Assembly: GCA_037447655.1 (NCBI GenBank)
Contig: JBBHKE010002877.1
Span: forward strand, 112,176 to 176,175
Direction of reading: 5' to 3'
Origin: Zygnema cylindricum
Taxonomy: Eukaryota; Streptophyta; Zygnematophyceae; Zygnematales; Zygnemataceae
Length of the DNA: 64,000 bases
Shown here piece by piece: positions 4,401-28,616 of this stretch; within the stretch, counting starts at the first letter, position 1; each line of letters opens with the position of its first letter. The translations under genes were made by a program, and so were the position numbers. A model generated the notes under the pieces. That model had not been told where the DNA came from. It did no database searches and saw only the letters and a program-made list of their open reading frames with translations.

Positions 4401-4997
4401 TCGGTTACCGCGGATGAGCGCCGTGACCTTGATCCTCACATTAGTTTCCTGGACAATTCTCAAAAGTCCTTCTCCATTAATGGTGTTGCTCCTTCTCTCC
4501 TTCTCATGGACACCGGAGCCAAACCCGTGATCCTTGGATCCGGATTTGCGCTCAAGCTTGGTCAGACAGCAGACAAGCTCCAAGCCACGTCTATGCGGCT
4601 TTTCACTTCAACCGGTACCACAGAGCCGGTGCTTCGAATTACCAAGGACCCGCTTGTCTTTCGATTTCACAACGAAACCGATAGTGAGTCCGTGGAGGTT
4701 TCTGTCCGAGGATTGGTCATCAAATGCAAAGACTACGAATGCTTAGTGGGACAAGATGTTATCTTCCGAATCGGTGGGGGGGTAAATATGCATGATCAGA
4801 CCTTCTCCTACCGTCCCTCTAATTTTCCGGGACGCAAAATCTGCCTCCCTCTTGTCTCGGCTCGCAAACCGTTGCCCACCATGGCACATTTGGCTTCCGC
4901 TCTCCCTGCATTTTCAAGTATCGACCTTAGGGAAGACAATTGCGACTCTCTTTTCCTAGAAAAGGATCCTTCCAGCCACCCCACCTTTGCAAGATAG
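4401..4997 (+). CDS. pro: Aspartic protease domain of element A
   Basis: Retropepsin-type protease that would process the polyprotein. The active-site motif is LLLMDTGAKPVIL, with the DTG aspartate at about 4506-4510, and it is preceded by a typical FSINGVAPSL strand. A C-terminal hydrophobic segment (YECLVGQDVIFRIGG, about 4735-4780) fits the second conserved retropepsin motif. The frame is open from the TAG at 4398-4400 to the stop at 4995-4997, so expression would need readthrough or processing of a fusion. The part from about 4780 on (HDQTFSYRPSNFPG) recurs at 8615-8660 in A'. Confidence 0.8.
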   Translation, partial: SVTADERRDLDPHISFLDNSQKSFSINGVAPSLLLMDTGAKPVILGSGFALKLGQTADKLQATSMRLFTSTGTTEPVLRITKDPLVFRFHNETDSESVEVSVRGLVIKCKDYECLVGQDVIFRIGGGVNMHDQTFSYRPSNFPGRKICLPLVSARKPLPTMAHLASALPAFSSIDLREDNCDSLFLEKDPSSHPTFAR

Positions 4998-5262
4998 TTT
5001 CACTGAGCCCGGTTTTCTCATCGACTCGCGTCATCTCTTGGATACCATCCAAACCAAGGTCTCTCCACACATTCTCTATGTGGTGGACAGCGATACTAAC
5101 GGGATGTTGAGTTTGCAGAGGGTGTATACATGTACAGGTGGTGATTAAGGGTTTCACATGGAGTGCCTCTCTTCTCCATTATCTTTCAACCCTGTTGACC
5201 ATTGCTGCCTCTATATCTGTTCCAAGCCCGCGGTTGTGTTGACCAACTCCTCTAAAAGCTAA
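4990..5262 (+). pseudogene. Remnant of integrase C-terminus and PHD finger in element A
   Basis: In a second frame this stretch reads HILYVVDSDTNGMLSLQ, which lines up with the integrase C-terminus of A' (ILRIIKVDPNGMLGLQ, about 19460-19505). It is followed by GFHMECL, matching GFHMDCL of the A' PHD finger, and by a tail matching VLASSSAG. The central pol is thus deleted between the end of the protease/pre-DNMT region and the integrase tail. Stops interrupt it, so it is not functional, but it shows that the family carries the PHD module. Confidence 0.65.
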
Positions 5263-5267
5263 GGAGC

Positions 5268-5282
5268 TGGGGGGGGAATTAT
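5268..5282 (+). other. G-rich tract before B1 (polypurine tract)
   Basis: AGCTGGGGGGGGAATTAT precedes B1. A run of G at the same place occurs in A' (19802-19811) and, on the minus strand, in B (about 24000-24010), which supports a role as plus-strand primer. Confidence 0.6.
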
Positions 5283-5505
5283 TGGGTCCACTCACTGTAG
5301 GGGAGTATTGTTCCCTTTCTCGCTTTCCACTTCACTCTAGGGGGGTATTCTTCCCCTTCTCTCTTTGGGTCATTTTCACCTTTATTCTTCTCATGATGTA
5401 TATAATTTTTGTTTTTTCATATTTATTTTCGCTGGTACATATGTTGGTTAGCATGACTCTGCTGGTTCTGATGCATGTTCGCATACTTGCCTCTCATGCA
5501 CGACA
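5283..5505 (+). repeat. B1 segment of element A
   Basis: 223 bp starting TGGGTCCACTC and ending GCACGACA. Repeated almost exactly as B2 at 6680-6902. It is followed by two bases (GG) and then TGTC, the start of A2. Confidence 0.8.
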
Positions 5506-6672: not shown

Positions 6673-6679
6673 TAATTAT

Positions 6680-6902
6680 TGGGTCCACTCATTGTAGGGG
6701 AGTATACTTCCCTTTCTCTCTTTCCACTTCACTCTAGGGGAGTATTCTTCCCCTTCTCTCTTTGGGTCATTTTCACCTTTATTCTTCTCATGATGTATAT
6801 AATTTTTGTCTTTTCATATTTATTTTCGCTGGTACATATGTTGGTTAGCATGACTCTGCTGGTTGTGATGCATGTTCGCATACTTGCCTCTCATGCACGA
6901 CA
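6680..6902 (+). repeat. B2 segment, right terminus of element A
   Basis: Second copy of B1, also 223 bp, ending GCACGACA at 6902. The sequence after it belongs to another element. Between A2 and B2 lie seven bases, TAATTAT; the last six equal those before B1, and the first T equals the base after A1. Confidence 0.8.
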
Positions 6903-7416
6903 ACCCTCAGTCTCTGTCTTTTGTTTTGGGTCTTGGGTTTGCAGCTGGTCGCCACTCTCAGGCACATCCGTCTCAACCAGCTCGGGGGGGGGGGGAATGC
7001 ATCACTAAGAAAATTTTTTCGTCCCACTCTCCAAGGGACCACATTTCAATTTTTCCTCTTTCCTTCTCCAAATCCACCAGTTCCAGAAATCTCTATCTAC
7101 GATTTCCTAAATCCTAGCGATATGTCCTGGTCTATTCCCGCATACACGACTTTCCAATCTACAAGTCCCATGCATATTCCACCCACTCTTCATTAGAGTG
7201 CTGCTTTTCCAACACGCAGTTGGAATCATTCGGTTAATTGCCTTATACAGACACCTATAGCTTACAAGTTAGGTCAAACACTTATCGCAGATGAGCTGTT
7301 GGCCTTTGCACAAGCCATAGAAGCTATGACAACCGAAAATCCCGATGCTCCTAAATGGAAATTCGACACCAATCTAACAAAGGCCGAACAAGAGTTACTG
7401 AATGACGTAGTTTTAC
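6903..7416 (+). pseudogene. Fragment of a second A'-family copy (DNMT end to RT start)
   Basis: Closely matches 9912-10424 of A': the DNMT C-terminal edge, the poly-G tract (6984-6994 here, 9993-10002 there), and the segment leading into RT (AIEAMTTEN... region). It is cut on the left by element A and on the right by the AT-rich block from 7417. It reads CAA where A' has the stop TAG at 10160-10162, which shows the ancestral codon was glutamine. Confidence 0.75.
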
Positions 7417-8389: not shown

Positions 8390-8441
8390 TGTTGATTTCC
8401 AAGAAATCCGGGATTCGGCATGTCCCACACTTGGGAAAATT

Positions 8442-8512
8442 GAGCCGGCCAGGGTTCGAACCTGGGACCTTTCACTTCAGCTGCGAACGCACTACCACTG
8501 TGCCACCAGCTC
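8442..8512 (-). repeat. tRNA-like sequence, probable head of a SINE
   Basis: On the minus strand 71 nt fold as a tRNA cloverleaf: acceptor arm GAGCTGG/CCGGCTC (7 pairs, one G-U), a GCAC/GTGC D stem, an anticodon stem TTCGC/GTGAA with a 7-nt loop, and a perfect T arm CCAGG-TTCGAAC-CCTGG. The pol III boxes are close to consensus (GTGGCACAGTGGTAG and GGTTCGAACCC). The anticodon loop lacks U33, so it is unlikely to be a working tRNA. The AT-rich block beyond its 3' side (towards lower coordinates) fits a SINE body and tail. Confidence 0.55.
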
Positions 8513-8609
8513 GATGTAGAGACTGGCGGGTCCGTACCCTTTTCTTACGGGCGGCTCGAGTATGGATATTCCATATTCTACCCCGTATTGAACCGGCTTC
8601 ACGTGCCAA
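8513..8609. other. Short unassigned junction
   Basis: About 100 bp between the tRNA-like sequence and the start of recognisable A' sequence. It contains CTTTTCTTACGGGCGGCTCG and matches nothing else I noticed in the window. Confidence 0.4.
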
Positions 8610-8995
8610 TCCGACATTTACATGCATGATCAGACATTGTCTTATAGGCCCACTAACTTCCCGGAACACAAAATCTGCATTCTGCTAATTTCCGCTAGGA
8701 AGCCTATGCCTATTATGGCAAATTCGGCCACATCCATACCTGCATTTTCAGGGAATTCGGTGGGGCCGAAATATTTCATTCATTGTCACCAGAAGAAATT
8801 ATGCCCGATAGTTCTTACTTACCAAAAAATTTCAGTGACCCAGGTTTTCTTATAAATACGAGGGAATTTGACCGAATTTGTAACCAAACCTTGTCAATTC
8901 CACTTTCTCCGGCCTCTCCTACAATCTCAGTCCCTACAGACTCTTTTGGGTTTCTTCCCATTAATTCGAATCCGGTCCAATTGAAACCTCATCCA
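8610..8995 (+). pseudogene. Protease-to-DNMT linker of A'
   Basis: Begins where A' becomes alignable with element A (HDQTLSYRPTNFPEHKICIL here, matching 4780-4830). From about 8783 the frame shifts to one reading PGFLINTREFDRICNQ, which corresponds to PGFLIDSRHLLDTIQ at about 5005-5050 of A. That shared tail ends where the DNMT begins, so the segment joins protease to DNMT in the polyprotein. No enzymatic motif seen. Confidence 0.55.
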
Positions 8996-9930
8996 AATGG
9001 ATTGGTGATTTTGGACCTTTTCGCTTGAATAAGCACTTCCCTCCTTGCATGTTTGCGGAATGGATTATTAATCCGATTTAATTATTCGGTTGAGATTGAT
9101 CCGTTAGCGCGGAAAGCACAATTACATCATTGTAATCTGTTGCATTCCCAATACCTGCATTTGTTACCAAAATCCGCATACGAGCATATGCATACCGCCC
9201 TCCCACAAGACATCCGGGTTGTGGGCAATTATCACTTACAGGATATTGGTCTTATCAATCTAGTTTTTGGCGGATGGGAGTGCCAGGGAATGTCTCGGGC
9301 CGGGAAAGGTCTCGGATTAGCCGATCCCCGCACCAAATTATTTTGTGAATTGGTCCGCATCCTACATTTTCTACAAACTTTAGATCATCCTATGGGGTAT
9401 ATCTTGGAAAATGTCACAGCCTATAATGATCCAAGACCTACAGTCTTAGCTGATTATCAACGGATTGAACAATTAATTGGTCCGCCTCTTATTATTGACG
9501 CGGCTCGCCATGGTTCACTAGCACACCGGGTTCGCTCCAAATGGAAGAACTTGATCGATATTGGTAGACTCCGTGAGGCCAACTTGTCAGTTCGTCCTCC
9601 TCATACAGACATTCAGGCTGCCCTTTTTCCTTTCCATAAGGTGTTGCCTTGCCTTCAAAAGGACTATCCCCCTAATTTCAATGTCAATGTCCTGGGTCAA
9701 CCTCTCAAGGTGCTTCCTACCTTAGTTTCGTACCCACATTCACATGCATACTCTAATGACGGTTGTGGCATGCTCCGAAACATTCATACCGGTGAGCTCG
9801 AAGAGCCTACCTCTAGGGAACGAGAACTCTTCATGCATTTCATTCCTGGCACTACAGCCGCTCCTGGTTTTACAGAACGTCAAAGATGTGCTTTATTAGG
9901 TCGTGTCATGTACCCTCAGGCTTTCTTTTT
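8996..9930 (+). CDS. Cytosine-5 DNA methyltransferase domain in the gypsy-like polyprotein (A')
   Basis: Would transfer a methyl group from S-adenosylmethionine to C5 of cytosine in DNA. Motif I reads VILDLFA and is cut by TGA at 9026-9028, where glycine is expected. After it the frame stays open from 9053. Motif IV is GGWECQGMSRAGKG with the catalytic cysteine at codon 9281-9283 (usual PCQ is ECQ here). Motif VI is GYILENVT (about 9395-9420). IIDAARHGSLAHRVRSKWKN (about 9493-9552) resembles the AHRxRxxWxN block of DNMT3/DRM-type enzymes. A C-terminal region with ERELFMHF and RQRCALLGRVMYPQA fits motifs IX-X. It lies in frame with RT downstream. Catalytic cysteine and ENV kept; motif I broken. 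Confidence 0.85.
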
Positions 9931-11170
9931 TGTTTTAGGTCTCGGGTTTGCAGCTGGTCGCCACTCTCACGCACATCCGTCTCAACCGGCTGGGGGGGGG
10001 GGTGCATCACTAAGAAAATCTTTCCGTCCCACTCTCCAAGGGACCACATTTCAATTTTTCCTCTTTCCTTCTCCAATTCCACCAGTTCCGAAAATCTCTA
10101 TCTACGATTTCCTCAATCCTAGCCATATTTCTTGGTCCATTCCCGCATACACGGCTGTCTAGTCTACAAGTCCCATGCATATTCCACCCACTCCTCATTG
10201 GAGTGCTACTTTTCCAACACGCAGTTGGAATCATTCGGTTAATTGCCTTAAACAGACACCTGTAGCTTACGAGTTAAGTCAAACGCTTATCGCAGATGAG
10301 CAGTTGGCCTTTGCACAAGCCATAGAAGCTATGACAACCGAAAATTCCGATGCTCCTAAATGGAAATTCGGCACCAATCTAACAAAGGCCGAACAAGAGT
10401 TACTGAATGACGTAGTTTTACCCAATATCGATGCCTTTGCCTGTTTTATGAACGATTTGGGTCGTCACACCGCTTATAACATGTCGATAGATCTCGAAAA
10501 TGATCGCCCTATATTTAAACCAAAACATCGTTTGCCACAAACTGAATGGGAAATGGTAGACAAGCGATGTGCTGAACTAGAGGATTTTGGCCTAATCTAT
10601 CGGTTAGACTCCACATTTGCAGCTCCCACTGTCATGCCCCGGAAAAAGGATTCCGAGGGTAATTTTACTGAACGTCAAATGTGTGGTGACTATCGTGAAC
10701 TAAATGCTAGAACGGTTCAGGATTGTCGTCCCATGCCTCTTGCCGAAAAAATATTTGATCACGTAGCCGGAGCAAAGTATTTTAGTATCCTTGACCTCCG
10801 TCAGGGATTCAATCAAATTGAGATAGAGAAAAAAGACCGGCATAAAACTACCTTTTGGGGTATCGACGGCCGATGGGAATGGGCCTTAATGCCATTCGGA
10901 CTGAAAAATGCTCCGAAAGTATTTCAAAAAGTCACGGAATCCGTTCTTGGAGGTTGTAAGTTTGCTAGATGCTACATCGATGACCTCATCATTGCCTCGG
11001 CTACTATCGAAAAGCACGCTGCTCACATTGAATGGGTATTGACTGAATTAAAAAAAGGTTGGATTAAAATGTCATCCAGCGAAATGCACCTTTGGGGCCA
11101 AGGGAGTGCCTTACCTCAGCCATTTTATCTCGGCTGAGGGGATCACTCCTCTCGAAGCAAAGGTAGAGGC
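9931..11170 (+). pseudogene. pol: Reverse transcriptase of A' (interrupted)
   Basis: Copies element RNA into DNA. After a poly-G run (9993-10002) and linker, TAG 10160-10162 interrupts a frame that is otherwise continuous with the DNMT. RT blocks follow: MCGDYRELNARTV (about 10678-10716), LDLRQGFNQIEI, WALMPFGLKNAPKVFQ and the catalytic YIDDLI (about 10972-10990). Near 11070 the frame changes; the next frame reads KCTFGAKGVPYLSHFISAEG, the usual end of gypsy RT. The domain is then split at 11170 by the copia element and resumes at 17608. Confidence 0.9.
11166..11170. repeat. Target-site duplication of copia-1, left copy
   Basis: GAGGC directly before the LTR; the second copy is at 17608-17612 directly after the other LTR. 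A 5-bp duplication is standard for copia integrases. Confidence 0.95.
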
Positions 11171-12217
11171 TGCAATTCTGTGTCCTCCATTGGACCACAG
11201 AATACAGGAAGCCTCTAGATAGTATTTAACTAACCCACTTTAAGCCACAACCACTGCTGCCCAAGAAGGCAAACTGACAATTTGACTGCACCCCTGTGTA
11301 GCCTGGACTCCCCTGAGTCCGTAGAAAAAGGAATCACTGAAAACGGCCAACCAGGCGATAAGTTATAGGGTGGCAAAGATGCCAATTTATACAAACTCTC
11401 TGAGAGAGAGGACTATCTACCTAAATTTTCCTAAGTCCTAGTTTTTCCTAATTCCCTCTCACGGCTCCTATCTACTGCCTGTACGAACCAATCACAAAAC
11501 TGTATAGTACTAGAAAGTACTACTGCCGATGTACTTTCTGTACGGCCTCTGTACGACAAGGCCATAAGTGGACGCGTGTATACTTTCCACTCATCCGTAC
11601 GTTCCTCGGAATTCCCGCGACCGAATGATGTCTCCCCACGTGGCGCCAGGTGATGCCACGTCACTAAATGCCAAAGTGACCACTCCGGGATTTCGGCGAT
11701 GATGTGCGCCGTTGGATTATATGCGAAACGTAATCTTGGCCGGAATAAATACTTGCGCGATATTTGTTCCGATGTAGAAATAAAATGCGTGGTATCCGTT
11801 TTGAATTAGCGTCGTACGACGTACTTTATAAAACTGTATATATGTACGCCGTAAACAGTTTTAGTTAAATGAACTTTATCCTTTCGAACTAAATATATAT
11901 CTATCACATACCATAGCACTTAGCATTGGTCCTAGTCTATTAGGATAAAGCTGACCGCTACCGGTCGATTAAACGAACCGCAGGTACCGGGATCAAATCT
12001 CTGGTCCGTCAAGTATATTTTTAGTAACCTACTAAAAATAGCTGTCTGTTGAACTAAGGCAGCCATGGATCAACCTCTCTCTCTTTCCTTCAGTGACTAC
12101 AGCAAGTATGGGGGCTAGAGAGCGGAGGTGGAGGCAGGCTGTCCGTCCTTTTCTTTTTCCTTTTATAAAACCATATTTAAACCTAGAAAATACTCTAGAA
12201 ATCTATAAATTTCAACA
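11171..12217 (-). repeat. 3' LTR of copia-1
   Basis: 1047 bp, TG...CA ends. Compared by eye with 16561-17607 it differs at about 11453 (G/A), 11575 (C/T) and 11849 (C/T); this copy keeps C/G at each. Confidence 0.95.
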
Positions 12218-12230
12218 CTCCCCTTATTTT
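12218..12230 (-). other. Polypurine tract of copia-1
   Basis: On the minus strand AAATAAGGGGAG directly precedes the 3' LTR (TGTTGAAATTT). This is the expected position and composition for the plus-strand primer. Confidence 0.8.
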
Positions 12231-15200
12231 CTAGTCTAATTTTAATTTTTCTTTCAACCCGCATTTTTCCCGACAATATTTTAGTTTAGGAGAGGGCACA
12301 GGTTTGGTCATCATGTCAGCCACCATTTCTTCATCAGGTCTATACACAAGATTTAGAATTTTATTTTCAACTTTTTCTCTTACGAAGCTTAATCTTATGT
12401 CCATATGTTTTGCTTTGAAATGGTGTTTTGGATTGGCTGCAATTGCAATTGCAGCTTGGTTATCGCAAAAGATTTCATGCACTCCCTCCTTCATAAATCC
12501 CAGTTCTTGTAACAATGATTTCACCCACATTAGTTCTTTTACAGCAAAACACGACGCCATATACTCAGCCTCCATAGTAGACTGAGCAACCACCTTTTGT
12601 TGCTTACTGCTCCAACAGCAAGCACCTTCCCCCACATACAAAACATATCCAGAAGTGCATCTTCTCATAGGTGCATCCCCATAACTGGCGTCACTCCAAG
12701 TGGTGATATCAGTATGCTCCCCTCCCAAATGCAACCATAACTCTCTAGTTCCCACCAGATATCTCATGACTCTCTTGGCTGCCTCCCAATCTCTCTTCCT
12801 ATGATCATTAAGACTCCTACTGAGTACTCCAACTGCTGCCGCTATGTCCGGCCTGGTACAGTTCATAAAATAGATTAAGCTTCCTACGACCTGTCTATAA
12901 GGAATAGACTTCATGAACTCTCTCTCCTCTAGACTCATCTGATCGTCTAAGATCATCACTCCTCCTTCTACACTCCCATCACTTACTTTTTTCAAGTCCA
13001 TGGGAGTGGTACAACTGTTAGCATTTTCCATCTGGAATTTCTCAAGCATATTACCTATTGCTTCTTTCTGAGTAAGTCTGATAATCTTCTTCCCTCTATC
13101 TCTCTCCATTTGGATCCCCAAAATATATTTTGCCTCCCCTAAATCCTTCATATCAAATCTGCCCCTAAGATCTTTCTTTAGCCTATTGATATTATCTAAA
13201 GACTTACTTAACACAAGCAGATCATCCACATAAATTGCAATAAAAATGACACCATTCTCATCTTCAAACATATAGATAGAATGGTCAGAGCTGATCCGGA
13301 TGTATCCCAGATCGGTGAGAAACTCATCTAGTTTCTTGTTCCACTGTCGCGGAGCCTGTTTCAGTCCATATAAGGACTTTATGAGCCTGCACACTTTGCT
13401 CTCTTCTCCTTCTTCCACAAACCCCTCGGGTTGCCTCATAAAAATTTCTTCCTCTAACTCACCATTAAGAAAAGCAGTCTTAATATCCATCTGGTGAATT
13501 TCCATGTCTTCCGCTGCGGCCAGACTGAGGAGAATCCTTACCGATGGGAACCGAACAACTGGAGCAAAGGTCTCCTCATAGTCAATCCCCTCTTTTTGGG
13601 TGAACCCCTTTGCTACCAATCGAGCCTTATACCTCTCAATTGTATTATCTGGGTTCAGTTTTAGTTTAAATACCCATTTACATCCAATAGGTTTTCTATC
13701 TGGAGGGCAATCCGCTAGTTCCCAAGTATTTGCTTCCATGATAGAAGCCATCTCATCATTTATGGCTCTAATCCATCTTTCTTTCTCTGGACTATTCACT
13801 GCCTCTAAGTAAGACTGAGGCTCATCTGGGTGAGATAGCTTAGTTACCTTATGGGCAGCTTGTTTTTCCTGTATCCTTTTGCTGCTCCTCCTTCCTCCCT
13901 CAAACTCCGAAGCTGGAATGGATGGAAGTCTTGGATTTCTTCTCACTGTCTCATCGGCTCCCCTGTCCATAAAAACCGTATCTTGTCCCGCTTCTTCCAT
14001 CTCCTCGAAGTCCATAGGAGTATGTGAGGTTTCCGGTGAGTCTCCTGTATCTTCGATCTCCCCTGAATCTGTAATCACAGTTTCACTCATGTCTTTTTCG
14101 GGAACGACTGAGTTCTCCTCACTTTCGGACTCAAATCTGATCCTTATCTTCTTTGTATATTTGAAGGGGTCAAATGACTTCCCTGCATCCATGACAACTA
14201 AGTGTTTGACCAGAATGATATCTTTCTTTGCTAAGTCATAGACTCTATATCCCTTAACATCCTCGTCATATCCCACAAAGTATCCAGGTTTTCCCTTAGC
14301 ATCTAGTTTCCAGTTTTTCCTATCTGTGTCAAGACTGTAAACTTGGCTACCAAATACTTTAAGGTGTGAGATATCTGGTTTCCTTCCAACCCATCTCTCA
14401 TAAGGTGTCACTCCCTTTACAGCTGAGGTAAGGACTCTATTTTTAATATAGTTGGCACAGTTCATTGCCTCTGCCCAAAATCTCTTTCCTATTTTCTTGT
14501 CTGCCAACATACTACATGCACTATCTCCTAGTGTTCGATTCAACCTCTCAGCTACCCCATTTTGTTCCGGGTTATATGGTACAATTTTCTGGTGTTGCAC
14601 TCCCTCATCTCTCAGATATTCCTCAAACTGGTTAGAGGTATATTCCCCCCCATTATCACTCCTTATCCTCTTAATAGGGGTTTCATGCAACTTCTCACTC
14701 CAAGCTTTATATTCTTTGAAGTAAGTGGATGCTTCAGATTTATTTTTCAGAAAGTAGACTCTAGAGTATCTAGACCAATCATCAGTTATTGTCATCATAA
14801 ACCTCTTTCCTCCAACCGAAGGTACTTTTGCAGGTCCCCAAATATCTGTGTGGACCAAATCTAACACTTTCTCACCTCTATATGTGGCGGCTTTGGGAAA
14901 GGGAAGTCTGTGAGCCTTACCTTGAGCACAACCACTACAATCATCCATTATTTCATTATCCCCAAACTGAATGCCATCTACTACCCCAAGCTTTTTCATT
15001 TCCCTTAACCTATCAAAATGCACATGCCCCAAACGCTTATGCCAAATCATCACCTTAGGAACACCAACATAGTAAGCATTCTTCTTTTCATTACTCAAGT
15101 TAAGCCTAAACATTCCTTGGCTACCCTTATCTGCTGTGAAGTAAACTTCATTCCCATACTTAGCTGTAAAGACTCCCTTCCTGGTGAAGGTATCAAACTC

Positions 15201-15422
15201 TTTGTCATCTAACATAGACGTAGAGACAAGATTTTTACTCAGCAGAGGAATGTAAAGTACATCTGAGAATGTAAGTATAGAGGTCTTACCCTCCACTAAG
15301 ACTTTCAGATCTACTGATCCCACTAGATCTGTAGTAACCACTCTCCCATCCCCATACTCTATCTCTACAGTAGGAATCTTTCGTAGCTTAGTGAAGAGTT
15401 CTTTATCACGGCACATATGCAT
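12231..15422 (-). CDS. pol: Copia-1 Pol: integrase, reverse transcriptase, RNase H
   Basis: 1063 codons on the minus strand, in frame with gag through one TGA (15432-15434). Blocks seen: the GAG-pre-integrase/HHCC finger with H128, H133, C162, C165; integrase D193 (HTDIWGP), D256 (IRSDNGGEY) and E292 (NGVAERLNRTL), spaced as D-D-35-E. RT runs from WELADCPPDRKPIGCKW (about 567) through the catalytic YVDDLL (731-736). RNase H has WSDASYGDAP, CTSGYVLYVG and AQSTMEAEYMA (about 925-990). Length and order match intact plant copia elements. The ATG at its start is not a natural initiator; the protein is the continuation of gag. A serine/acid-rich linker (about 430-500) separates integrase and RT. 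Confidence 0.95.
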   Translation of the reverse strand: MHMCRDKELFTKLRKIPTVEIEYGDGRVVTTDLVGSVDLKVLVEGKTSILTFSDVLYIPLLSKNLVSTSMLDDKEFDTFTRKGVFTAKYGNEVYFTADKGSQGMFRLNLSNEKKNAYYVGVPKVMIWHKRLGHVHFDRLREMKKLGVVDGIQFGDNEIMDDCSGCAQGKAHRLPFPKAATYRGEKVLDLVHTDIWGPAKVPSVGGKRFMMTITDDWSRYSRVYFLKNKSEASTYFKEYKAWSEKLHETPIKRIRSDNGGEYTSNQFEEYLRDEGVQHQKIVPYNPEQNGVAERLNRTLGDSACSMLADKKIGKRFWAEAMNCANYIKNRVLTSAVKGVTPYERWVGRKPDISHLKVFGSQVYSLDTDRKNWKLDAKGKPGYFVGYDEDVKGYRVYDLAKKDIILVKHLVVMDAGKSFDPFKYTKKIRIRFESESEENSVVPEKDMSETVITDSGEIEDTGDSPETSHTPMDFEEMEEAGQDTVFMDRGADETVRRNPRLPSIPASEFEGGRRSSKRIQEKQAAHKVTKLSHPDEPQSYLEAVNSPEKERWIRAINDEMASIMEANTWELADCPPDRKPIGCKWVFKLKLNPDNTIERYKARLVAKGFTQKEGIDYEETFAPVVRFPSVRILLSLAAAEDMEIHQMDIKTAFLNGELEEEIFMRQPEGFVEEGEESKVCRLIKSLYGLKQAPRQWNKKLDEFLTDLGYIRISSDHSIYMFEDENGVIFIAIYVDDLLVLSKSLDNINRLKKDLRGRFDMKDLGEAKYILGIQMERDRGKKIIRLTQKEAIGNMLEKFQMENANSCTTPMDLKKVSDGSVEGGVMILDDQMSLEEREFMKSIPYRQVVGSLIYFMNCTRPDIAAAVGVLSRSLNDHRKRDWEAAKRVMRYLVGTRELWLHLGGEHTDITTWSDASYGDAPMRRCTSGYVLYVGEGACCWSSKQQKVVAQSTMEAEYMASCFAVKELMWVKSLLQELGFMKEGVHEIFCDNQAAIAIAANPKHHFKAKHMDIRLSFVREKVENKILNLVYRPDEEMVADMMTKPVPSPKLKYCREKCGLKEKLKLD

Positions 15423-15431
15423 GGATGCACC

Positions 15432-16580
15432 TCAGTCGATGATCCATCCTTCCTGTGGAGCTTCCCGAATTGCTCCAAGGGCACACTTCTGCCTCCGAGG
15501 GATCTCCTTCTCCTCCAGACTCTCGTCAAGAAGAAGCTCCCCATCCTCCTCAGATGACTCATCCTCGATTTCTCCTGACACTTTTGTAACCACAAGTGCC
15601 TTTTTCTTCCCTCCGGGAGAACCCCCTCCACGGTTTTCTTGGAGCCTCAGCTCTGACAACTTGACACAATCTGCAATAAAGTGTCCCGGCTTTTTGCAAT
15701 AATGACAAAGACCCTTTGGGGGCCTCTGTCCCCCAGAATTATCTCTTTCCCCTCTATAAGGTTTCTTCGGATCCTTCCCCCATCGGTCCCCTCCTGCTGC
15801 TAGAGCTTGAATGCTCTTTCCTCCTCTCCTAATCTCCATTGTGTTTTCCTGCACAAGTATCATCCTGACTACTGTGTTCCATTTCCATGAACTATCAGGC
15901 ATTCCCTGTACTCGGTACACTATGTTTTCGAACTCATCTGGTAATTTCATGATAAGGGTGTTAACTTTCATTTTCATTGTACCTGTCCACCCGGCACTTT
16001 CCATTTCCATATACAAACAAGAAAGATCATTACAGTAATCTAACATCTTTCCTCCTTTGTAAGTGTAACTCAATAGCTTTTGCTCAGCCAACTGGAGCTC
16101 CTGAATAGTTCCAGCTCTATAAATCTCCACCAAACTCTCCCACAATTCCTCTGCCTTGTAAATGTGAAGATGAGGAGTGGCCAAACCTTGAGTGAGGTGC
16201 CTCAAAATGAAGTTCTTGGCAGCCGTGTTTACATCCTCCCACATTTGAGTATCGTTCTCCACGGTCTTCACAATTGCCGCTCCCGATACTGTGGCAATAG
16301 AAGTAAGGGGTGTCTCCTTCCTTTTCCCCTTTTCGGACACACTGCTGTCCCCATCATCTGCCTCCTCCGCCGAGGCAGCCGTTGTTGCAGGAAACCTTAC
16401 TCCCCCAAATCCTGGTGGAGTTCCTGAAGGTGGACGTTTCACTTGTCCACTGACGATACCCCAGTATCGTTTTTCACACAAAGCTCCCATCATCATGGCT
16501 TCCCAATAGATGAACCCAGATCCATTGAAGGTGGGCACCCTAGAGGGTGGGCCCATAACCTGCAATTCTGTGTCCTCCAT
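15432..16580 (-). CDS. gag: Copia-1 Gag, ending at TGA in the protease active site
   Basis: 382 codons on the minus strand. The start ATG at 16580-16578 lies 20 bp inside the 5' LTR, so the first codons (MEDTELQ) come from the LTR and codon 7 spans the LTR end; the next codons overlap the primer-binding site. The retrotransposon capsid occupies about 110-260 (LWESLVEIY, YCNDLSCLY). The CCHC knuckle CHYCKKPGHFIADC is at 292-305. The frame then reaches GWIID followed by TGA and GAS. The related copy at 44300-44330 has serine there, giving the D-S-G protease signature, so one base change truncates the polyprotein at the catalytic triad. Confidence 0.93.
   Translation of the reverse strand: MEDTELQVMGPPSRVPTFNGSGFIYWEAMMMGALCEKRYWGIVSGQVKRPPSGTPPGFGGVRFPATTAASAEEADDGDSSVSEKGKRKETPLTSIATVSGAAIVKTVENDTQMWEDVNTAAKNFILRHLTQGLATPHLHIYKAEELWESLVEIYRAGTIQELQLAEQKLLSYTYKGGKMLDYCNDLSCLYMEMESAGWTGTMKMKVNTLIMKLPDEFENIVYRVQGMPDSSWKWNTVVRMILVQENTMEIRRGGKSIQALAAGGDRWGKDPKKPYRGERDNSGGQRPPKGLCHYCKKPGHFIADCVKLSELRLQENRGGGSPGGKKKALVVTKVSGEIEDESSEEDGELLLDESLEEKEIPRRQKCALGAIREAPQEGWIID
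16546..16560 (-). other. Primer-binding site of copia-1 (initiator tRNA-Met anticodon arm)
   Basis: The plus strand reads GGTGGGCCCATAACC immediately beside the 5' LTR. This equals the anticodon-arm segment of plant initiator tRNA-Met as I know it, so the element RNA is complementary to an internal tRNA site rather than the 3' end. Drosophila copia uses a cleaved half of the same tRNA. The site is also coding (VMGPP of gag). An identical site is at 45456-45470. Confidence 0.85.
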
Positions 16581-17607
16581 TGGACCACAGAATACAGGAA
16601 GCCTCTAGATAGTATTTAACTAACCCACTTTAAGCCACAACCACTGCTGCCCAAGAAGGCAAACTGACAATTTGACTGCACCCCTGTGTAGCCTGGACTC
16701 CCCTGAGTCCGTAGAAAAAGGAATCACTGAAAACGGCCAACCAGGCGATAAGTTATAGGGTGGCAAAGATGCCAATTTATACAAACTCTCTGAGAGAGAG
16801 GACTATCTACCTAAATTTTCCTAAGTCCTAGTTTTTCCTAATTCCCTCTCACAGCTCCTATCTACTGCCTGTACGAACCAATCACAAAACTGTATAGTAC
16901 TAGAAAGTACTACTGCCGATGTACTTTCTGTACGGCCTCTGTACGACAAGGCCATAAGTGGACGTGTGTATACTTTCCACTCATCCGTACGTTCCTCGGA
17001 ATTCCCGCGACCGAATGATGTCTCCCCACGTGGCGCCAGGTGATGCCACGTCACTAAATGCCAAAGTGACCACTCCGGGATTTCGGCGATGATGTGCGCC
17101 GTTGGATTATATGCGAAACGTAATCTTGGCCGGAATAAATACTTGCGCGATATTTGTTCCGATGTAGAAATAAAATGCGTGGTATCCGTTTTGAATTAGC
17201 GTCGTACGACGTACTTTATAAAACTGTATATATGTACGTCGTAAACAGTTTTAGTTAAATGAACTTTATCCTTTCGAACTAAATATATATCTATCACATA
17301 CCATAGCACTTAGCATTGGTCCTAGTCTATTAGGATAAAGCTGACCGCTACCGGTCGATTAAACGAACCGCAGGTACCGGGATCAAATCTCTGGTCCGTC
17401 AAGTATATTTTTAGTAACCTACTAAAAATAGCTGTCTGTTGAACTAAGGCAGCCATGGATCAACCTCTCTCTCTTTCCTTCAGTGACTACAGCAAGTATG
17501 GGGGCTAGAGAGCGGAGGTGGAGGCAGGCTGTCCGTCCTTTTCTTTTTCCTTTTATAAAACCATATTTAAACCTAGAAAATACTCTAGAAATCTATAAAT
17601 TTCAACA
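16561..17607 (-). repeat. 5' LTR of copia-1
   Basis: 1047 bp, nearly identical to 11171-12217. All three differences noticed carry A or T here against G or C in the partner. It holds the gag start codon at its inner end. The region 16900-17060 is rich in GTAC/CGTACG motifs shared by all copia LTRs of the window. Confidence 0.95.
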
Positions 17608-17612: not shown

Positions 17613-18363
17613 AATCAGAAAATTGCTTGCTCCCACGGACCTCACAAGTCTGCGAGCCTTTCTCGGACTTGCTAATTATTATCGCAGGTTTGTATCTAAT
17701 TTTAGCACCATCGCATCTCCGTTAAGTGACCTTCTCAAGAAGGAAGTGGCGTTTATATGAGGTCCCCATCAGATTTCCACATTTCAAAAATTAAAAACCG
17801 CTTTATCGAGTGCTCCAATTCTCCGTCCTCCCAATCACAAACTCCTTTTTTGTCTCCAAACAGATTTTGGGAAACCCAGAATCGTTGCCATTTTGACACA
17901 AAGAGAGTTCAGGGGAGAGGAATACGTAGTTGCTTACGCGAGTAGAAGCAATAACCGGGTTGAATCAAATTATAGTAGCTACGAAGGAGTTGGGGAGTCG
18001 TTCACTTCCGCCATTATTTGTACGGAAAACCTTTCACACTCCTAACTGACCATCAGCCCTTACATTGGTTGATGACGAACAATAAGCTTTCCAGGAAGCT
18101 AGCCCGATGGGCTTTAATCTTACAAGAATATGACGTTGAAATAATTCACCGACCCGGTCTGCTTAGTCTAAACGCAGACGGAATTTCCCAAAATCCTTTG
18201 CCTCGAACGACGGATAACGGAGTTCGACGCGATTTCGACGACGACTATGTTTTCGTCATGTCAATGGGTCCTTATCTTACTTACTGCTTGGCCACCATTC
18301 CGAACCCCCGTCCCGCCACAGATCCTTGGCATGATGTGTCTCTCATTCTTTTCCTATCCTCCT
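17608..18363 (+). pseudogene. pol: RT end and RNase H of A'
   Basis: Continues RT after the copia insertion: LRAFLGLANYYRRFVSNFSTIASPLSDLL (17645-17740), the usual RT-to-RNase H connection, then TGA at about 17756 in place of a tryptophan codon. RNase H blocks follow, with frame changes: VVAYASRSNN (about 17925), FTLLTDHQPLHWLM (about 18030-18075), KLARWALILQEYDVEIIHRPG (18095-18160) and NADGISQNP. It degrades the RNA of the hybrid in a working element. Broken by at least one stop and one frameshift around 17995. Confidence 0.88.
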
Positions 18364-19558
18364 AGACCATCAGGTCCGGCACTACCTGTAACGAAGAAGA
18401 CAGAGTGAAAAAGAGGGCCAAAAGTTACCTTTGGCTCGGGGGGTCTTTAGTTCGGTTGTTGGCAGACGGAAGCCATAGGCACGTTACACGGCCTACCGAG
18501 CGTCTTTCTCTCATTAAGCAGATTCACACTGAGCTTGGTCACTACAGTACAAAGCAAACGTTAAGTCTAGTTCAGGCACGGTATTGGTGGTCAAGAATGC
18601 AAGCTGATGTCGCTGCTATTCTGCACAAGTGTGCCACCTGTGACCGTCTCCAAACTTCTTTTTCTAATCGGCAGACTACCCTCCAACCTCTACCTATTAG
18701 GGGTTTGTTCTATCGATGGTCGTTTGATTTTGCCGAACCTTTTCCTATCTCACGTAAAAGGAAACAATACATTATGATTATGATCGAAAATATCAGTAAG
18801 TGGGTACAAGTCGTAGCCCTGCCTCACAAGACAGCTGAGTTAACCTCCGCATCTTTTAAAGAACATGTCCTTATGAGATACGGTGCCCCAGCCGAGGTCG
18901 TTGCGGATCAAGGTACAGAATTTCGGGGAGAATTTCAAGAGATGCTTGATGAGGCCCTCATCGATCATCGTCGTACTAGTCGGGATCACCCTAGGCTGAT
19001 GGTATGGCTGAACGGGCAGTCCAGACATTTAAGCGTGCCTTGCGTAATCATTGCTTACAGAAACACATTTCGGTTTGGGACGAGTCCCTCGGCTACATTA
19101 CCATGGGATATCGCATGTCACTTCAAGCTAGTCTGGCTAATTTCAGCCCGTACTATGTTTTATTTGGGCGACAACCGTTGCTCGGTCGCAATATTCAGAA
19201 AGCTGTAAGCTTTCCACTTTCGCTGATGTCTGACACTGTCTTTTTGGAAGAACTCACTTGTCGTGCTTTGCTTTTTGCTCGTGAAATGCCCATGGCTTTT
19301 GATAACCTGCAGATTGCCCAGCATCAGGACACACTTCGGTTTGCCACCACTTGAAGCGGCAGTTACAGGCCACAACAAAAGCCCTATCCGGTGGGAGACT
19401 ATGTTTATCTTCGCAGGCAATCTTTCGACACTTTGGACACTGATGTTTCTGCACAGATCCTACGGATCATCAAGGTGGATCCAAACGGAATGTTGGGATT
19501 ACAAGGAGCGGACACATGGACTTTTCGAGAGCACTCTAAGAATTGTTCTCCATGTTAG
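18364..19558 (+). pseudogene. int: DDE integrase of A'
   Basis: Inserts the DNA copy into the genome. The HHCC finger is complete (H41, H46, C76, C79 counted from the ATG at 18405). The core has D108 (SFDFAEPF) and D168 (VADQGTEF). A one-base frameshift near 18988 then moves the frame, and the glutamate lies in MAERAVQTFKRAL (19004 on). Another shift near 19355 leads to the C-terminal SH3-like part, PYPVGDYVYLRRQSFDTLD ... VDPNGMLGLQ, ending NCSPC at 19555. The next codon is TAG, with the PHD finger in the same frame behind it. This is a classic retroviral-type integrase, not a tyrosine recombinase. Confidence 0.9.
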
Positions 19559-19795
19559 TTACCACATTTTTCACAGGATATGGATCCTATGCAGATGCCG
19601 ATTACAGAGGCGACGGCATGTACCTTTTGTCTTCGATCGGACGGGGAAACTACCATGTTACTTTGTGATCATTGCAGTCAAGGGTTTCACATGGATTGTT
19701 TGATGCCACCATTGTTGGTAGTTCCGGATGGTTATTGGTTTTGCCACGGATGTCGAGAGCTTGCGGTCGTGTTGGCCAGCTCCTCTGCCGGCTAA
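19559..19795 (+). CDS. PHD finger at the C-terminus of the A' polyprotein
   Basis: PHD fingers bind histone H3 tails, often reading methylated or unmodified lysine 4. All eight ligands are present: CTFC, then 11 residues, CDHC, four residues and H, two residues and C, then 14 residues and CHGC (a C4HC3 pattern), with the conserved aromatic two residues before the seventh ligand (YWFC). It follows integrase in the same frame after TAG 19556-19558. In element B the integrase tail and PHD are fused without a stop, so a fusion is the ancestral state. It could guide integration to chosen chromatin, the role of chromodomains in related elements. The ATG at 19580 is available but probably not used. 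Confidence 0.88.
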   Translation, partial: LPHFSQDMDPMQMPITEATACTFCLRSDGETTMLLCDHCSQGFHMDCLMPPLLVVPDGYWFCHGCRELAVVLASSSAG

Positions 19796-19811: not shown

Positions 19812-20002
19812 ATAAACCGGCCTAACCATAACCAGCTAAGTCGTTGACCTTTCTTTTTCTTTCACCTTGCCTGTTGTTATATTTATTCATTTTTCTCTTT
19901 CATGTCTTATTTCATTCACAACATATTTTCATCATTTCGGTTTAAGTGGAGCACAGCTGATGATATTGCATGCATCTTCACGTTATTGACACATGCACGA
20001 CA
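19812..20002 (+). repeat. B1 segment of A'
   Basis: 191 bp from ATAAACCGGCC to GCACGACA; repeated as 21934-22124. Followed by GC and then TGTC. Confidence 0.8.
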
Positions 20003-20004
20003 GC

Positions 20005-21932
20005 TGTCATGCTGCATCTCGTCGGTCATTTTAATTTTTAATATGTAGGTGTTAAGACGGGCAGCCGCCACACTAATTTATATTTGGGTGTATTAAGGTT
20101 TTGCAAGGTCGTACATACTTATGTTGGTCGTAATTTCCGCCGACGGCAAGTTCAACCGTACGACATACATCTCCCGTGATTTGCGTAGACGGTGGATTTC
20201 GTCATTTCACGTCGTCCGTACAATATATATTCTGCGCGATTTCCGCCGACGGTGGATTCGATTTTTCACGTAAACCGTACGACTAACATTTGTCGGAATT
20301 TGCGGACAACAAAGTGGACCGTACCTACGGTTCTACCGTACCTATTCTCATTTCCCGGAATATCCGCCGAAGACTCATTTTCGAATTTGCGCTCGTACAA
20401 ATAATCGTACCGTACCAACTTTCATTCCCGTGAATTCCGGGTGACAACAGAATTTAATCATTTCGCGTGGAGTACACCGTCAATCGCTATTAGAGTATAT
20501 AACGCCAATTCGGTGCCCTTTTTTCAAAAAAAAAACCCGAAATACAATCCATAATTTTATTTTTTCCATTATTCTAATTAGGTTTTTTTTTCAATTAGCG
20601 TTAATAAAAAAAGTACACTGCGATGGAAATAGTGTGGCGTACGGACAGGGAATATTCGTACGAAATACTACTTTTTGAATAAGGAAAGCATAAAAAGACA
20701 CTTAACATTATTGCGCACACATGTGAATGTGCACTGGAAGAAAGAGACGCAAACTCGTCGAAAAAAATCACGTTCTCATATGTTCGTCCGTCGACCGTGT
20801 GAACAGCGCGACAGCGTACAAATTGTCAGATTTTGTACGGCTACACAGATTAATGTAGACATCGAAAGGGCGGGCATTTATTATTCAGGACAACCCAAAT
20901 TACAGTTAGGGATTAATTAGTATATATATTTTTTTTCAAAAAAAAATATTTCCCGATTAGTGTTAATAACACTATTTTTTTTTTTACGCTATTTATTCAG
21001 TTACTCTAATAGCGATTGACGGTGTAGCATCTCGGTTGTCGACGCAGAGTATGCAATTTTTCGTAACATCACATCTGGACCGTTAACGCGTGTGACAAAC
21101 AAAGCGACTGTTAGTTCTGACGAAGCGACGTGATTGGACTATTTTAAGTCGTGAACCATTTAGAGGTTCACGCATTCACATGTAGATAGGAAGGGTTTTA
21201 ATCCGTAGGTTATAGATTCTGTAATGTAGGGCATAGGATTTCGGCCTCCTATTGGCTGAATCCAAACAAGACGCAAATACTTACATAGCACGATGTACTC
21301 TGATTGGCCTGTTTTCACTAGGCATAGTTTTTGTTACTTAGTTCATTTCGGATCATTTCGTGCACACAATTTTCAAGTGCAGGAATTATTTATTTTTAGT
21401 ATTGAGGATTTTCTGCAACCATCTTATTATTTGTAAAATTGTCCGGACAGCTTAGAGGCGATTTTCTACCTTTGCGTGAAGCGTCTAGTTTTCTATTACA
21501 TTATCAATATCTTGTAAAGCCTTACAAATTAATTTCTACGGCTTCGACCAAGAACTACACGGTTTCCCTTCACTTTTCTCGTCCTTTTAAGTGGATTTCG
21601 ACCGCGTTCTCACGACACAAACTTCTTTTCTCGGCTTTGGCTGAGCTTTTATTAGTGTGAAAGTTGCATGTTGGGATTATTGATTTGTTGTTTTTATTTT
21701 TTGTGATTGTGTATTTATTTCTATTTGCTTATGCGCATCTTTTGAGTTTGGCTATCTCAAACATCATAAGTGTCAAGCATATTGTCATTTTTAATTTGTT
21801 GTTTGTCTTTCTTGGTTGTTTATGCTTTGATTTGTTTTATTTAAGTATAAATTCAGATTATCCTTCATAAGATAACTCCTACAAGGAATATAAATAGACC
21901 GTGGGGCCTAGTGGTCATCCATCGGCTTAGTA
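20005..21932 (+). repeat. A2 segment of A'
   Basis: Starts TGTCATGCTGC and ends CGGCTTAGTA. Its second half resembles A2 of element A (GGCCTCCTATTGGCTGAATCC, then GATAACTCCTACAAGG ... GGGGCCTAGTGG). A 557-bp MITE is inserted at 20471-21027. Its repeated GTACGAC/CGTACAAT motifs give a CpG-rich front part. Confidence 0.75.
20471..21027. mobile_element. MITE with CACCGTCAATCGC ends, inside A2 of A'
   Basis: Terminal inverted repeats: GTACACCGTCAATCGCTATTAGAG at the left, CTCTAATAGCGATTGACGGTGTA at the right. No transposase. An inner stretch (about 20690-20870) resembles 33420-33610 and 47510-47690 in the sister copies. Its ends fit a Tc1/mariner-like family with TA target. Confidence 0.8.
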
Positions 21933-21933
21933 A

Positions 21934-22124
21934 ATAAACCGACCTAACCACAACTAGCTAAGTCGTTGACCTTTCTTTTTCTTTCACCTTGCACGTTGTT
22001 ATATTTATTCATTTTTCTCTTTCATGTCTTATTTCAATCACAATATATTTTCATCATTTCAGTTTAAGTGGAGCACTACTGATGATATTGCATGCATCTT
22101 CACGTTATTGACACATGCACGACA
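21934..22124 (+). repeat. B2 segment, right terminus of A'
   Basis: 191 bp, ends GCACGACA exactly where B1 does. Twelve bases further (22137) the B element ends in the opposite orientation. Confidence 0.8.
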
Positions 22125-22136
22125 ATCTGTCATTGA

Positions 22137-24059: not shown

Positions 24060-24215
24060 TTTCCCACAGAACCAAAGTGCCGAGGGTTTAGGACGAGGGT
24101 CCTAAGAGGAGGGGAGACAAGACTGATGCCAACACTGGTCGCATCGATCACAGACCAGTACAAAATTCTGGGATGAAGACGAGAGGCAATCGAAGGAACA
24201 CAAAGGGGGATCAGC
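24060..24215 (-). pseudogene. Degenerate PHD finger of element B
   Basis: Minus strand: FVLVCDRCDQCWHQSCLPS followed by TAG, then WFCGK and TGA where the last cysteine pair should end. Ligands three to six of a PHD finger are present, and the WFC before the seventh; the eighth is lost to TGA. An upstream CSFDC stands for the first pair with abnormal spacing. It is continuous with the integrase tail upstream, with no stop between. Same module as at 19559-19795, independently decayed. Confidence 0.7.
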
Positions 24216-25400
24216 AAAATAGGTAAGGTGAAAAGTAGGTTCGTCTTCTAATCCCCGGATGTGACAGGGAGCCACATTGATCTGATTTTTCTTGATCCTC
24301 TGCCCATCCTTCGCTTCAAGTGTCAAGTCACCCTTATTGGAGACTTCCACTACTTTCAAAATCACCCTTCCCGCTAAAATGTCCGGAGTGTCCCTTTTCT
24401 GTTGCATGCGGTACACGAAATCCCCGGGAAGAAATCGCCGTTGCCGTGGGACAAAATTTCCGCTACGACGTTGCGAATACCAGAGTTGATCTCGGTGTTG
24501 GGCTGCTTGTAAATTTCCCATGGCCAGAGGCATTTCCTGGTGGAACACCTTGGCCCTATCGGCAATCAATTTCTCGACTGTCCCCTTATTGTCTATTTTC
24601 GGAAGGACCACAGCTTGGGAAAAGGCTCCGCCGGGTAGGATTGGGTGTCGTCGAACAAGTGAAATATGGACTGTAGGTGTTGAGGGATGCTTGCCGGCTG
24701 AACCGGTAACCCATGGCAATCCAAGGCACCTTTTTATCCCAACCCATGGCAATCTAAGGCACCTTTCTATCCCATTCTCCCAAATCCTCTTCCACGGCAT
24801 ATTTGCGCAGTGACCTCTTCACTGTCTGTACGCACCTTTCGCCCAAACCGTCGGCCTGGGGGTGATCTTGGCTGGTCAACCGGTGGTGGATGAGACATAA
24901 TTCCAACAAGTTGGAGAACTCTCCCGCAAATTCGGAGCCCTGGTCGGTCAACACTTCGATAGGGGCCCCAAATTGGGACAGCACTCGCTGCAAGAATGCG
25001 TCTGCAATTGCCTTAGACACCTTCCTAGGTAAGACCACCAATTCGATCCACTTCGAAAAATGCTCTATCATTACTAGGACAAAGCGGTTTCCTTGTCTGC
25101 TAGTGGGGAGAGGGCCCAGCAGATTCAAAGACCACCGATAAAACATTCCCCGCATTGGAAGTGAATGAAGCTGGGCACATCCCTTTATGTCGAGGGCTGC
25201 TTTGACTCGGTCACAGGAGGAACACGTCTGCACAATCCGGTTGACTAGGGTCCGCAACGCGTGCCACCAGTACGATCTGGTGACCAGGAGGTAGTCCGTT
25301 TCTACCCAAAATGGCCACATTGCTGGTGAAGACGAAACATCAGAGTCTCCCGGTCAGCCGGGGGAGGAACCACTTTACTCGTCCCGTGTGCCCACTTGCG
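24216..25400 (-). pseudogene. int: DDE integrase of element B
   Basis: Minus strand. Blocks: RLHQQCGHFG then CSSCDRVKAA (remains of the HHCC finger), FYRWSLNLLGPLPTSRQGNR, in which the first catalytic aspartate is replaced by asparagine, LTDQGSEFAGEF with the second, and GERCVQTVKRSLRKYA with the glutamate. A frameshift near 24790-24750 joins to the C-terminal part (GDFVYRMQQKRDTPDILAG, KKNQINVAPCHIRG). The integrase tail runs into the PHD region without a stop. Confidence 0.88.
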
Positions 25401-26158
25401 GATTAAAATACCCCTTTCCCATTCATATGCCGTCATTCGAGTCAGAAACCGTGATAACTTCAGTCTAGACAAATGGGGAAGAGGGGAACCTTGTTGGATA
25501 GATTGAAGTGCATTAGGGTCATTCCAAATGTCTTTTCGCTCGGCCCCTATTGGCGCTTGCCCCTCCACGTCTGCAGAGAAAGTTGACATTTCCCCCCTAG
25601 ATTGAGGAAGCCAAATAAAGGCAGAGGAAGCTCGAATGAGTCCCAAACTCATTTCAGGATCCTCATCATGGCGGGCCCTGGTGGAATCTCTAGAGGAAGG
25701 GTCAGTATTTCTACTAAGTCCGTCGGCATTCCCATGAATCTCTCCGGCCCGCTGGATTATGTTGAAGTCATATTCCAACAGTATTAACACCCACCTGGCG
25801 AGCTTGCCACTGAGCTTGCTGTTCTCCATAATCCACTTGAGAGGTGGGTGATCCGTAATCACAGTGAAACGGACTCCGTATAGGTATGGTCTGAAGTGTT
25901 GGATGGCCCATACCGCCGCCAACAATTCCCCATGATAGCTGCTGTAATTCCCCTCCGCTCGGTTATTACTCCTACAGGCGTAAGCTACCACATATTCGGC
26001 CCCAGCATCATCCAGTTGGGCTCAAACAGCTCCCAATCCAAACCGGCTCCAATCAGTGTACAGGAGAAAGGGTCTCTGGTGATCAGGCATTCGGAGCACT
26101 AGATGTTGCTTCAGGGAGTCCTTCAAGAACAAGAAGGCAATCTGTTGCTCCTCGTCCA
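25401..26158 (-). pseudogene. pol: RNase H of element B
   Basis: Minus strand: VVAYACRSNNRAEGNYSSYHGE (25990-25920), LLAAVWAIQHFRPYLYGVRF, TVITDHPPLKWIMENSKLSG, KLARWVLILLEYDFNIIQRAGE and NADGLSRN. This is the typical gypsy RNase H sequence with intact DH and aspartate blocks. The first part, about 26150-26000, is frameshifted. A spacer to integrase follows (about 25690-25480). Confidence 0.88.
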
Positions 26159-27130: not shown

Positions 27131-27464
27131 TTCGGGTTCAACCGCTGCCCATGCCTCCGGGGGTCTACCCCAGCGGGAGATATCGAATTCCAACCCTACC
27201 TGCGGGTCTACCTCTTCTCCTCCCATCAGAATGCTGCTGCTAACAACTTCTGCTAAGTTGTCCCCTTCCGAGCCTCCGCTCCCCCCCACTGAGGAATCCA
27301 TTAATTTCGGTAAAATGCTAGGACTAGAAAATTTTGATGATAAAAATTGTTTTCTTGCCTCCCTCCCCCCCTCAAGCTGCAAGTGGGCTGGCACCGCTAA
27401 CAACTTTGGAGCTTGAAGGTAGCTAACCCTCGATTTCCGGGACTGTAGGCTAGAGAAGGCCAGA

Positions 27465-28470: not shown

Positions 28471-28616
28471 ACGGAACTCCCGAAGATTCCAACTGAGGTT
28501 TTTTTTCCTTTACAAAAACAACTGTTAAGGATTTGTCCACTTCCCGCCAAAGTTTTGTTATCTGTAATTTTTTTGTTCTGGTATCCCTCTTCTTACCGCT
28601 TAGAAATAGGGAATTG

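Follow-up and report, generated by a model that had tools for sequence, protein, structure and literature searches.

The window analysed here, a stretch of 64,000 bp from Zygnema cylindricum, encodes a C5-DNA-methyltransferase (DNMT) domain at positions 8996-9934 of the plus strand. The match to the Pfam family PF00145 (E 7.7e-8) bears out a previous sequence-only reading of this DNA, which had placed such a domain at 8996-9930, had proposed the profile search, and had named the lack of a profile match as an outcome that would speak against it; the match obtained is significant. It is carried by the frame 9029-10159 (+), and the part ahead of a stop codon at 9026-9028 (+), which falls inside motif I as judged by frame reading, extends the domain to about 8996-9934. 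The following motifs are found in one frame: DLFA*IST (motif I, shortly downstream of 8996), GGWECQG (motif IV), ILENV (motif VI), AHRVRSKWKNL (motif VIII) and ALLGR (motif X), the last two ahead of 9934. They include the cysteine of GGWECQG, the ENV motif and the AHRVR block, all of which had been pointed out before.

The domain is part of A′, a Ty3/gypsy-type element split by a nested copia-type element. The DNMT is followed, in the same phase, by the first part of the reverse transcriptase (RT; 10163-11137 (+); RVT_1, E 2e-19), from which it is separated by a stop codon (10160-10162, +) that is absent from a sister fragment of A′ (6903-7416 (+); the DNMT end plus the linker to RT, 92.6% identity to 9912-10421). 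The suggestion that the DNMT lies between protease and RT, in frame with the latter, therefore holds on the RT side, the stop notwithstanding; the protease domain is missing from A′, which retains only DNA from just downstream of it (about 8598-8863 (+); matched by both tblastx and blastn to 4764-5031 in the related element A), the 5′ end having been lost near here. Beyond the copia element are located (i) the last part of RNase H (18033-18254 (+); PF17917, E 2.7e-8), (ii) the integrase, with its H2C2 finger and core, frame-shifted near the end (18366-19208 (+); PF17921, E 3.4e-14; PF00665, E 3.2e-10), (iii) a PHD finger at the end of pol (19559-19792 (+); PF00628, E 2.3e-11) and (iv) after a G-rich run, the putative start of the 3′ terminal repeat (19812-20010 (+); 94% identity to 21934-22133). 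This copy is dead. A comparison of the two window fragments over 166 codons gave dN/dS of 0.64 (NG86) or 0.86 (YN00), with no clear constraint, and selection was therefore measured on genome copies.

The copia-type element inserted in A′ (11171-17607, -) lies outside the DNMT family. Its repeats are near-identical (99.7% over 1048 columns), it is flanked on both sides by GAGGC, and it has an open frame of 1063 codons (12231-15422, -) with a CpG observed/expected ratio of 0.32, compared with 0.86 for the whole window. Just upstream of the cut end of A′ lies a gene for tRNA-Gln (CTG) or a repeat derived from a tRNA (8441-8512, -; Rfam 53.6 bits; ARAGORN). The window also contains a pair of 229-bp repeats (5277-5505 and 6674-6902, 97% identity), the right copy of which abuts the sister fragment of A′ at 6903, forming an odd junction.

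A second DNMT-bearing element, B, is present on the minus strand and belongs to a sister clade with PCQ in motif IV. Its DNMT (28621-27416) has internal stops: the first part (27902-28621, -; motifs I to VI, GWPCQG; PF00145, E 8.3e-9) is stop-terminated, and the last part (27416-27829, -; to motif X), which has no Pfam match on its own, was recognized by alignment with relatives. It is followed by RNase H (25305-26021, -; PF17917, E 1.1e-25), integrase (24757-25353, -; PF00665, E 1.6e-10) and a PHD-like piece with a stop inside (24114-24188, -; PF00628, E 0.0035, 17.8 bits, below the Pfam cut-off of 24). The Ty3/gypsy order of RT, RNase H and integrase is found in A′, in B and in the open genome copy L011 described below.

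Relationship of the methyltransferase to DNMT3

A phmmer search of PDB sequences gave DNMT3A as the top match of the A′ domain (E 6.4e-8) and DNMT3C as that of the first DNMT part of element B (E 6.9e-7). A profile built from 18 family sequences matched 57 PDB sequences at E up to 10, of which the best 29 were DNMT3 (87 to 61 bits), followed lower down by DRM (41 bits), HhaI (35), HaeIII (34) and DNMT2 (18); no entry named DNMT1 was among the 57. DNMT3 accounted for 50 of the 50 fold matches listed for the predicted structure of the relative P0001, a model with a mean pLDDT of 58 in which only the DNMT part is, for the most part, confidently predicted. In sequence and predicted fold, the element DNMT thus appears to be closest to DNMT3.

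The description of the domain as DNMT3/DRM-like consequently stands for its DNMT3 half. DRM identity was rejected, because DRM enzymes place motifs IX-X before motif I, whereas the elements have the canonical, non-rearranged order I-IV-VI-VIII-X. The host possesses clearly different methyltransferase genes of its own. Locus L007 contains an exon whose best PDB matches are 7ubu, 9mvy and 4fsx (E about 3.5e-29), the last of which we take to be the maize chromomethylase ZMET2; the gene is chromomethylase-like. A native DRM (L046, 1562-2710, -; DRM2 match, E 2.8e-71) shows the rearranged order and PCN. DRM is reported to be confined to streptophytes (PMC12344493), which makes a streptophyte host most likely.

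The element DNMT shares with DNMT3A/3B/3C the fold, the motif order, and the AHR.R..W.NL and LGR blocks. It differs from them in having no adjacent ADD or PWWP domain, a PHD finger being placed at the far end of the polyprotein, and in motif IV, where the PCN hallmark (DNMT3A/3C) is replaced by ECQ or PCQ.

Copies in the genome

In the 352.8-Mb assembly (2689 contigs), 782 candidates were obtained for PF00145, of which 123 were scored, and the matches number at least 123. With P0001 (protease and DNMT) as the query, at least 86 matches were obtained (85 scored of 2123 candidates), many of them near full query length and one of them the window copy (query 163-480). Fifty loci were fetched, corresponding to 46 distinct places; the two window copies raised the number to 48, and removal of the native genes L007 and L046 left 46 retrotransposon DNMT copies, 21 with ECQ and 25 with PCQ. 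The locus sample is non-random, being composed of the 10 best-scoring loci, 20 chosen mostly for long frames and 20 from a lower-ranked block.

The search for genomic copies that had been recommended was successful: L011 has a single open frame of 2395 codons with DNMT, RT (1496-1647), RNase H (1739-1841), integrase (1962-2128) and PHD finger (E 1.5e-9). It has no Pfam protease match, and its protease was seen by similarity to P0001 alone (43% identity, query 3-476). In L013, the same modules are contained in 1525 codons, with a PHD finger of 21.5 bits against a cut-off of 24; all modules except the PHD finger match in L014, yet its end is nearly identical to that of L013. The set is spread over two or three frames in L016, L019 and L020. 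A DNMT3-related domain within the Pol frame of a gypsy-type element is thus seen among these loci. Upstream of the DNMT, weak protease matches (E 2.2e-4 to 3.4e-4, below the Pfam cut-off) were found in L015, L019 and L020.

Direct end repeats, cut off by the limits of the fetched 9.9-kb stretches, were present in 6 of 19 loci; neither full-length repeats nor target duplications were seen. Their identity is 93% to 100%, which indicates that some insertions are recent, and it reaches 100% over the covered stretch in L011 (434 bp) and L019 (262 bp). The polyproteins of L011 (ECQ) and L014 (PCQ) share 47% identity from RT to the PHD finger and 42% over the DNMT, and the common module order of the two clades therefore most likely reflects one ancestor.

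Two clades of methyltransferase under selection

The catalytic Cys is retained in all 46 copies. The neighbouring residue is Glu in 21/21 ECQ copies, encoded by GAA (8) or GAG (13), and Pro in 25/25 PCQ copies, encoded by CCA (18), CCT (6) or CCG (1); silent change with the residue retained is a signature of selection. Random decay as the source of ECQ was rejected on these grounds, and ECQ had rightly been called unusual; its fixation in a clade, like the PHD finger, had gone unremarked. The Trp preceding the motif is conserved in 19/21 ECQ and 24/25 PCQ copies, and the following Gln in 21/21 and 24/25, respectively. In addition, all 21 ECQ copies keep the Glu and Asn of motif VI, and 20 of 21 the Arg at each position of motif VIII.

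The median dN/dS of the DNMT is 0.338 in the ECQ clade (50 usable of 210 pairs) and 0.288 in the PCQ clade (91 of 300), most pairs having been excluded for saturation, excessive similarity or a length below 150 codons; at dS 0.6-1 it is lower, i.e. 0.119 (5 pairs) and 0.218 (11 pairs), respectively. Constraint on RT exceeds that on DNMT when the same pairs are compared (0.168 vs 0.312 for ECQ, 21 usable of 105; 0.229 vs 0.291 for PCQ, 53 of 153). The DNMT is under protein-level selection, and a single genome harbours both of the sister clades, ECQ and PCQ. In a tree of slices of about 160 residues, the ECQ and PCQ rows are separate; since the supports are only 52 and 54, a single origin of ECQ is plausible.

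The PHD finger at the integrase end

Among Pfam matches with E up to 0.001, a PHD finger was found at the integrase end in five of the six loci L011, L013, L014, L016, L019 and L020, and a chromodomain in none of them. A strict PHD pattern was present in 10 of 15 ECQ loci of 9.9 kb vs 0 of 5 PCQ loci; it was missed in the latter because their first Cys pair is irregular, and in the PCQ clade the finger scores below the Pfam cut-off. The L011 finger matches 87 PDB sequences, including PHF12, BAZ2B, WSTF, KDM5, PHF21A, AIRE and UHRF1. Several of these fingers bind unmodified H3 tails. Chromoviruses are Ty3/gypsy elements with an integrase chromodomain; the elements described here resemble them in that the integrase core is followed by a module of a chromatin-reading type, and differ in that a PHD finger replaces the chromodomain and a DNMT has been added.

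Environmental relatives

Relatives were obtained by protein searches (5 proteins of 4019 candidates; 18 of 7999 scored). In the ten retrotransposon-type proteins that cover motif IV, it is WECQ in seven (P0001, P0002, P0003, P0006, P0009, P0011 and P0013) and WPCQ in three (P0007, P0008 and P0012). Five bacterial-looking methyltransferases (P0004, P0005, P0019, P0020 and P0022) have PCQ, and DNMT3A/3C have PCN. Protease (above the Pfam cut-off) and DNMT are joined in one frame in P0006, single frames run from the DNMT end into RT in P0015 and P0016, and P0023 covers the end of an integrase together with a PHD finger (E 4.1e-9). The integrase end of element B, used as a query, yielded two proteins from 114 candidates, one of them with a PHD match. 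In P0003, the DNMT is directly followed by integrase, with no RT between them, a layout that may represent either a second arrangement of DNMT in pol or a deletion.

In a genome contig collection, 19 stretches matched the search pattern and none was confirmed as a relative. A first scan of a viral contig collection gave no pattern match, and two more scans gave two and five stretches, none of them confirmed.

Comparison with known elements

A DNMT inside a gypsy Pol is a kind of arrangement already known. KnitGypsy-Dnmt3 of Klebsormidium nitens, described by de Mendoza et al. in 2018 (PMC5890265), supplies the charophyte precedent that had been mentioned: it is a streptophyte gypsy LTR element with a DNMT3-related, non-rearranged, intron-less DNMT in the Pol frame, under purifying selection, for which self-methylation was suggested. 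A yeast assay of the Klebsormidium DNMT in that study gave no methylation, a result its authors call inconclusive. Compared by description only, the repeats of KnitGypsy-Dnmt3 are described as DIRS-like, whereas the partial end repeats seen here are direct; the main text of PMC5890265 mentions neither a PHD finger nor motif IV, and the element could still carry a PHD finger. SymbioDIRS-Dnmt3 likewise has a DNMT3 domain inside a retrotransposon Pol, but is a dinoflagellate DIRS element with a tyrosine recombinase, reported as an independent acquisition (PMC5890265). In the open-licence literature, outside which most subscription papers lie, we found no fixed ECQ clade, PCQ sister clade or integrase-end PHD finger of a DNMT-bearing gypsy element.

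Possible function of the methyltransferase

As regards identity alone, it is nearly certain that 8996-9934 of A′ is the methyltransferase module of a multicopy streptophyte family of Ty3/gypsy type, in which the order of modules is protease, DNMT3-like methyltransferase, RT, RNase H, integrase and PHD finger. We propose that the protease cuts the methyltransferase out of the polyprotein, and that the latter would be packaged with RT and integrase and would act on new cDNA or at the insertion site, while the integrase-borne PHD finger would help to choose chromatin. Judged by the sequences, action on new cDNA or the insertion site might well occur, with the scales tipped slightly against it; for PHD-guided insertion they are evenly balanced. 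The whole explanation taken loosely, i.e. family identity, action on cDNA or insertion site and PHD-guided choice of chromatin, is one that we consider somewhat probable.

An insertion of the element into a methyltransferase gene of the host, which the sequence-only reading had named as a finding that would overturn it, or a chance association of the domains, has a negligible probability. The window copy by itself is broken and nested, as an interrupted gene might appear; however, there are scores of copies in the genome, many matching the protease-DNMT query end to end, some copies have a single frame, the same order recurs in environmental relatives, and the native DRM and chromomethylase-like genes are distinct. 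The interrupted-gene explanation was rejected: the DNMT module belongs to a real multicopy family kept under selection.

More weight is due to the view that the ECQ module, its fold and its binding of DNA or SAM being kept, is no longer a cytosine methyltransferase and has a structural or DNA-binding role, or a different substrate, for instance RNA. The substitution of Glu for Pro beside the catalytic Cys in every ECQ copy agrees with this, as does a CpG content without a strong methylation scar. The observed/expected ratio is 0.77-1.05 in 15 ECQ loci and 0.59-0.69 in 5 PCQ loci, compared with 0.32 in the copia frame of the window, and C-to-T type changes are in slight excess at CpG relative to other positions (0.111 vs 0.100 for ECQ; 0.130 vs 0.112 for PCQ). 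Lasting self-methylation finds no clear support in these CpG values; the elements may be unmethylated, methylated for a short time only, or methylated in contexts other than CpG. However, the near-complete conservation of the catalytic Cys and of the key residues of motifs VI and VIII exceeds the needs of a mere scaffold, and we regard loss of the enzymatic role as unlikely. An active enzyme could also serve restraint, silencing sister copies or older insertions and reducing harm to the host, an idea likewise considered by de Mendoza et al. (PMC5890265). Selection on the DNMT alongside many broken copies would fit such a role, but recent insertions exist, and we consider it quite improbable.

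A further reading, which the sequences make conceivable and which we hold to be doubtful, would be that of a retrotransposon lineage with its own chromatin writer and reader, in which each new copy picks chromatin and sets its own mark. As part of the same joint reading, Glu in place of Pro would define a new active-site class, perhaps with a chemistry unlike that of ordinary CpG methylation.

Since many transposons are silenced by DNA methylation, it is puzzling that one should maintain a methyltransferase of its own under selection; the question first appeared in print in 2018. The presence of Glu-Cys and Pro-Cys clades in one genome, in many copies, some of them long-framed and with identical end repeats, constitutes a natural comparison of active sites, and the coexistence of the clades makes it directly testable whether such elements mark their new insertions. 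The PHD finger is a testable reader beside the putative writer.
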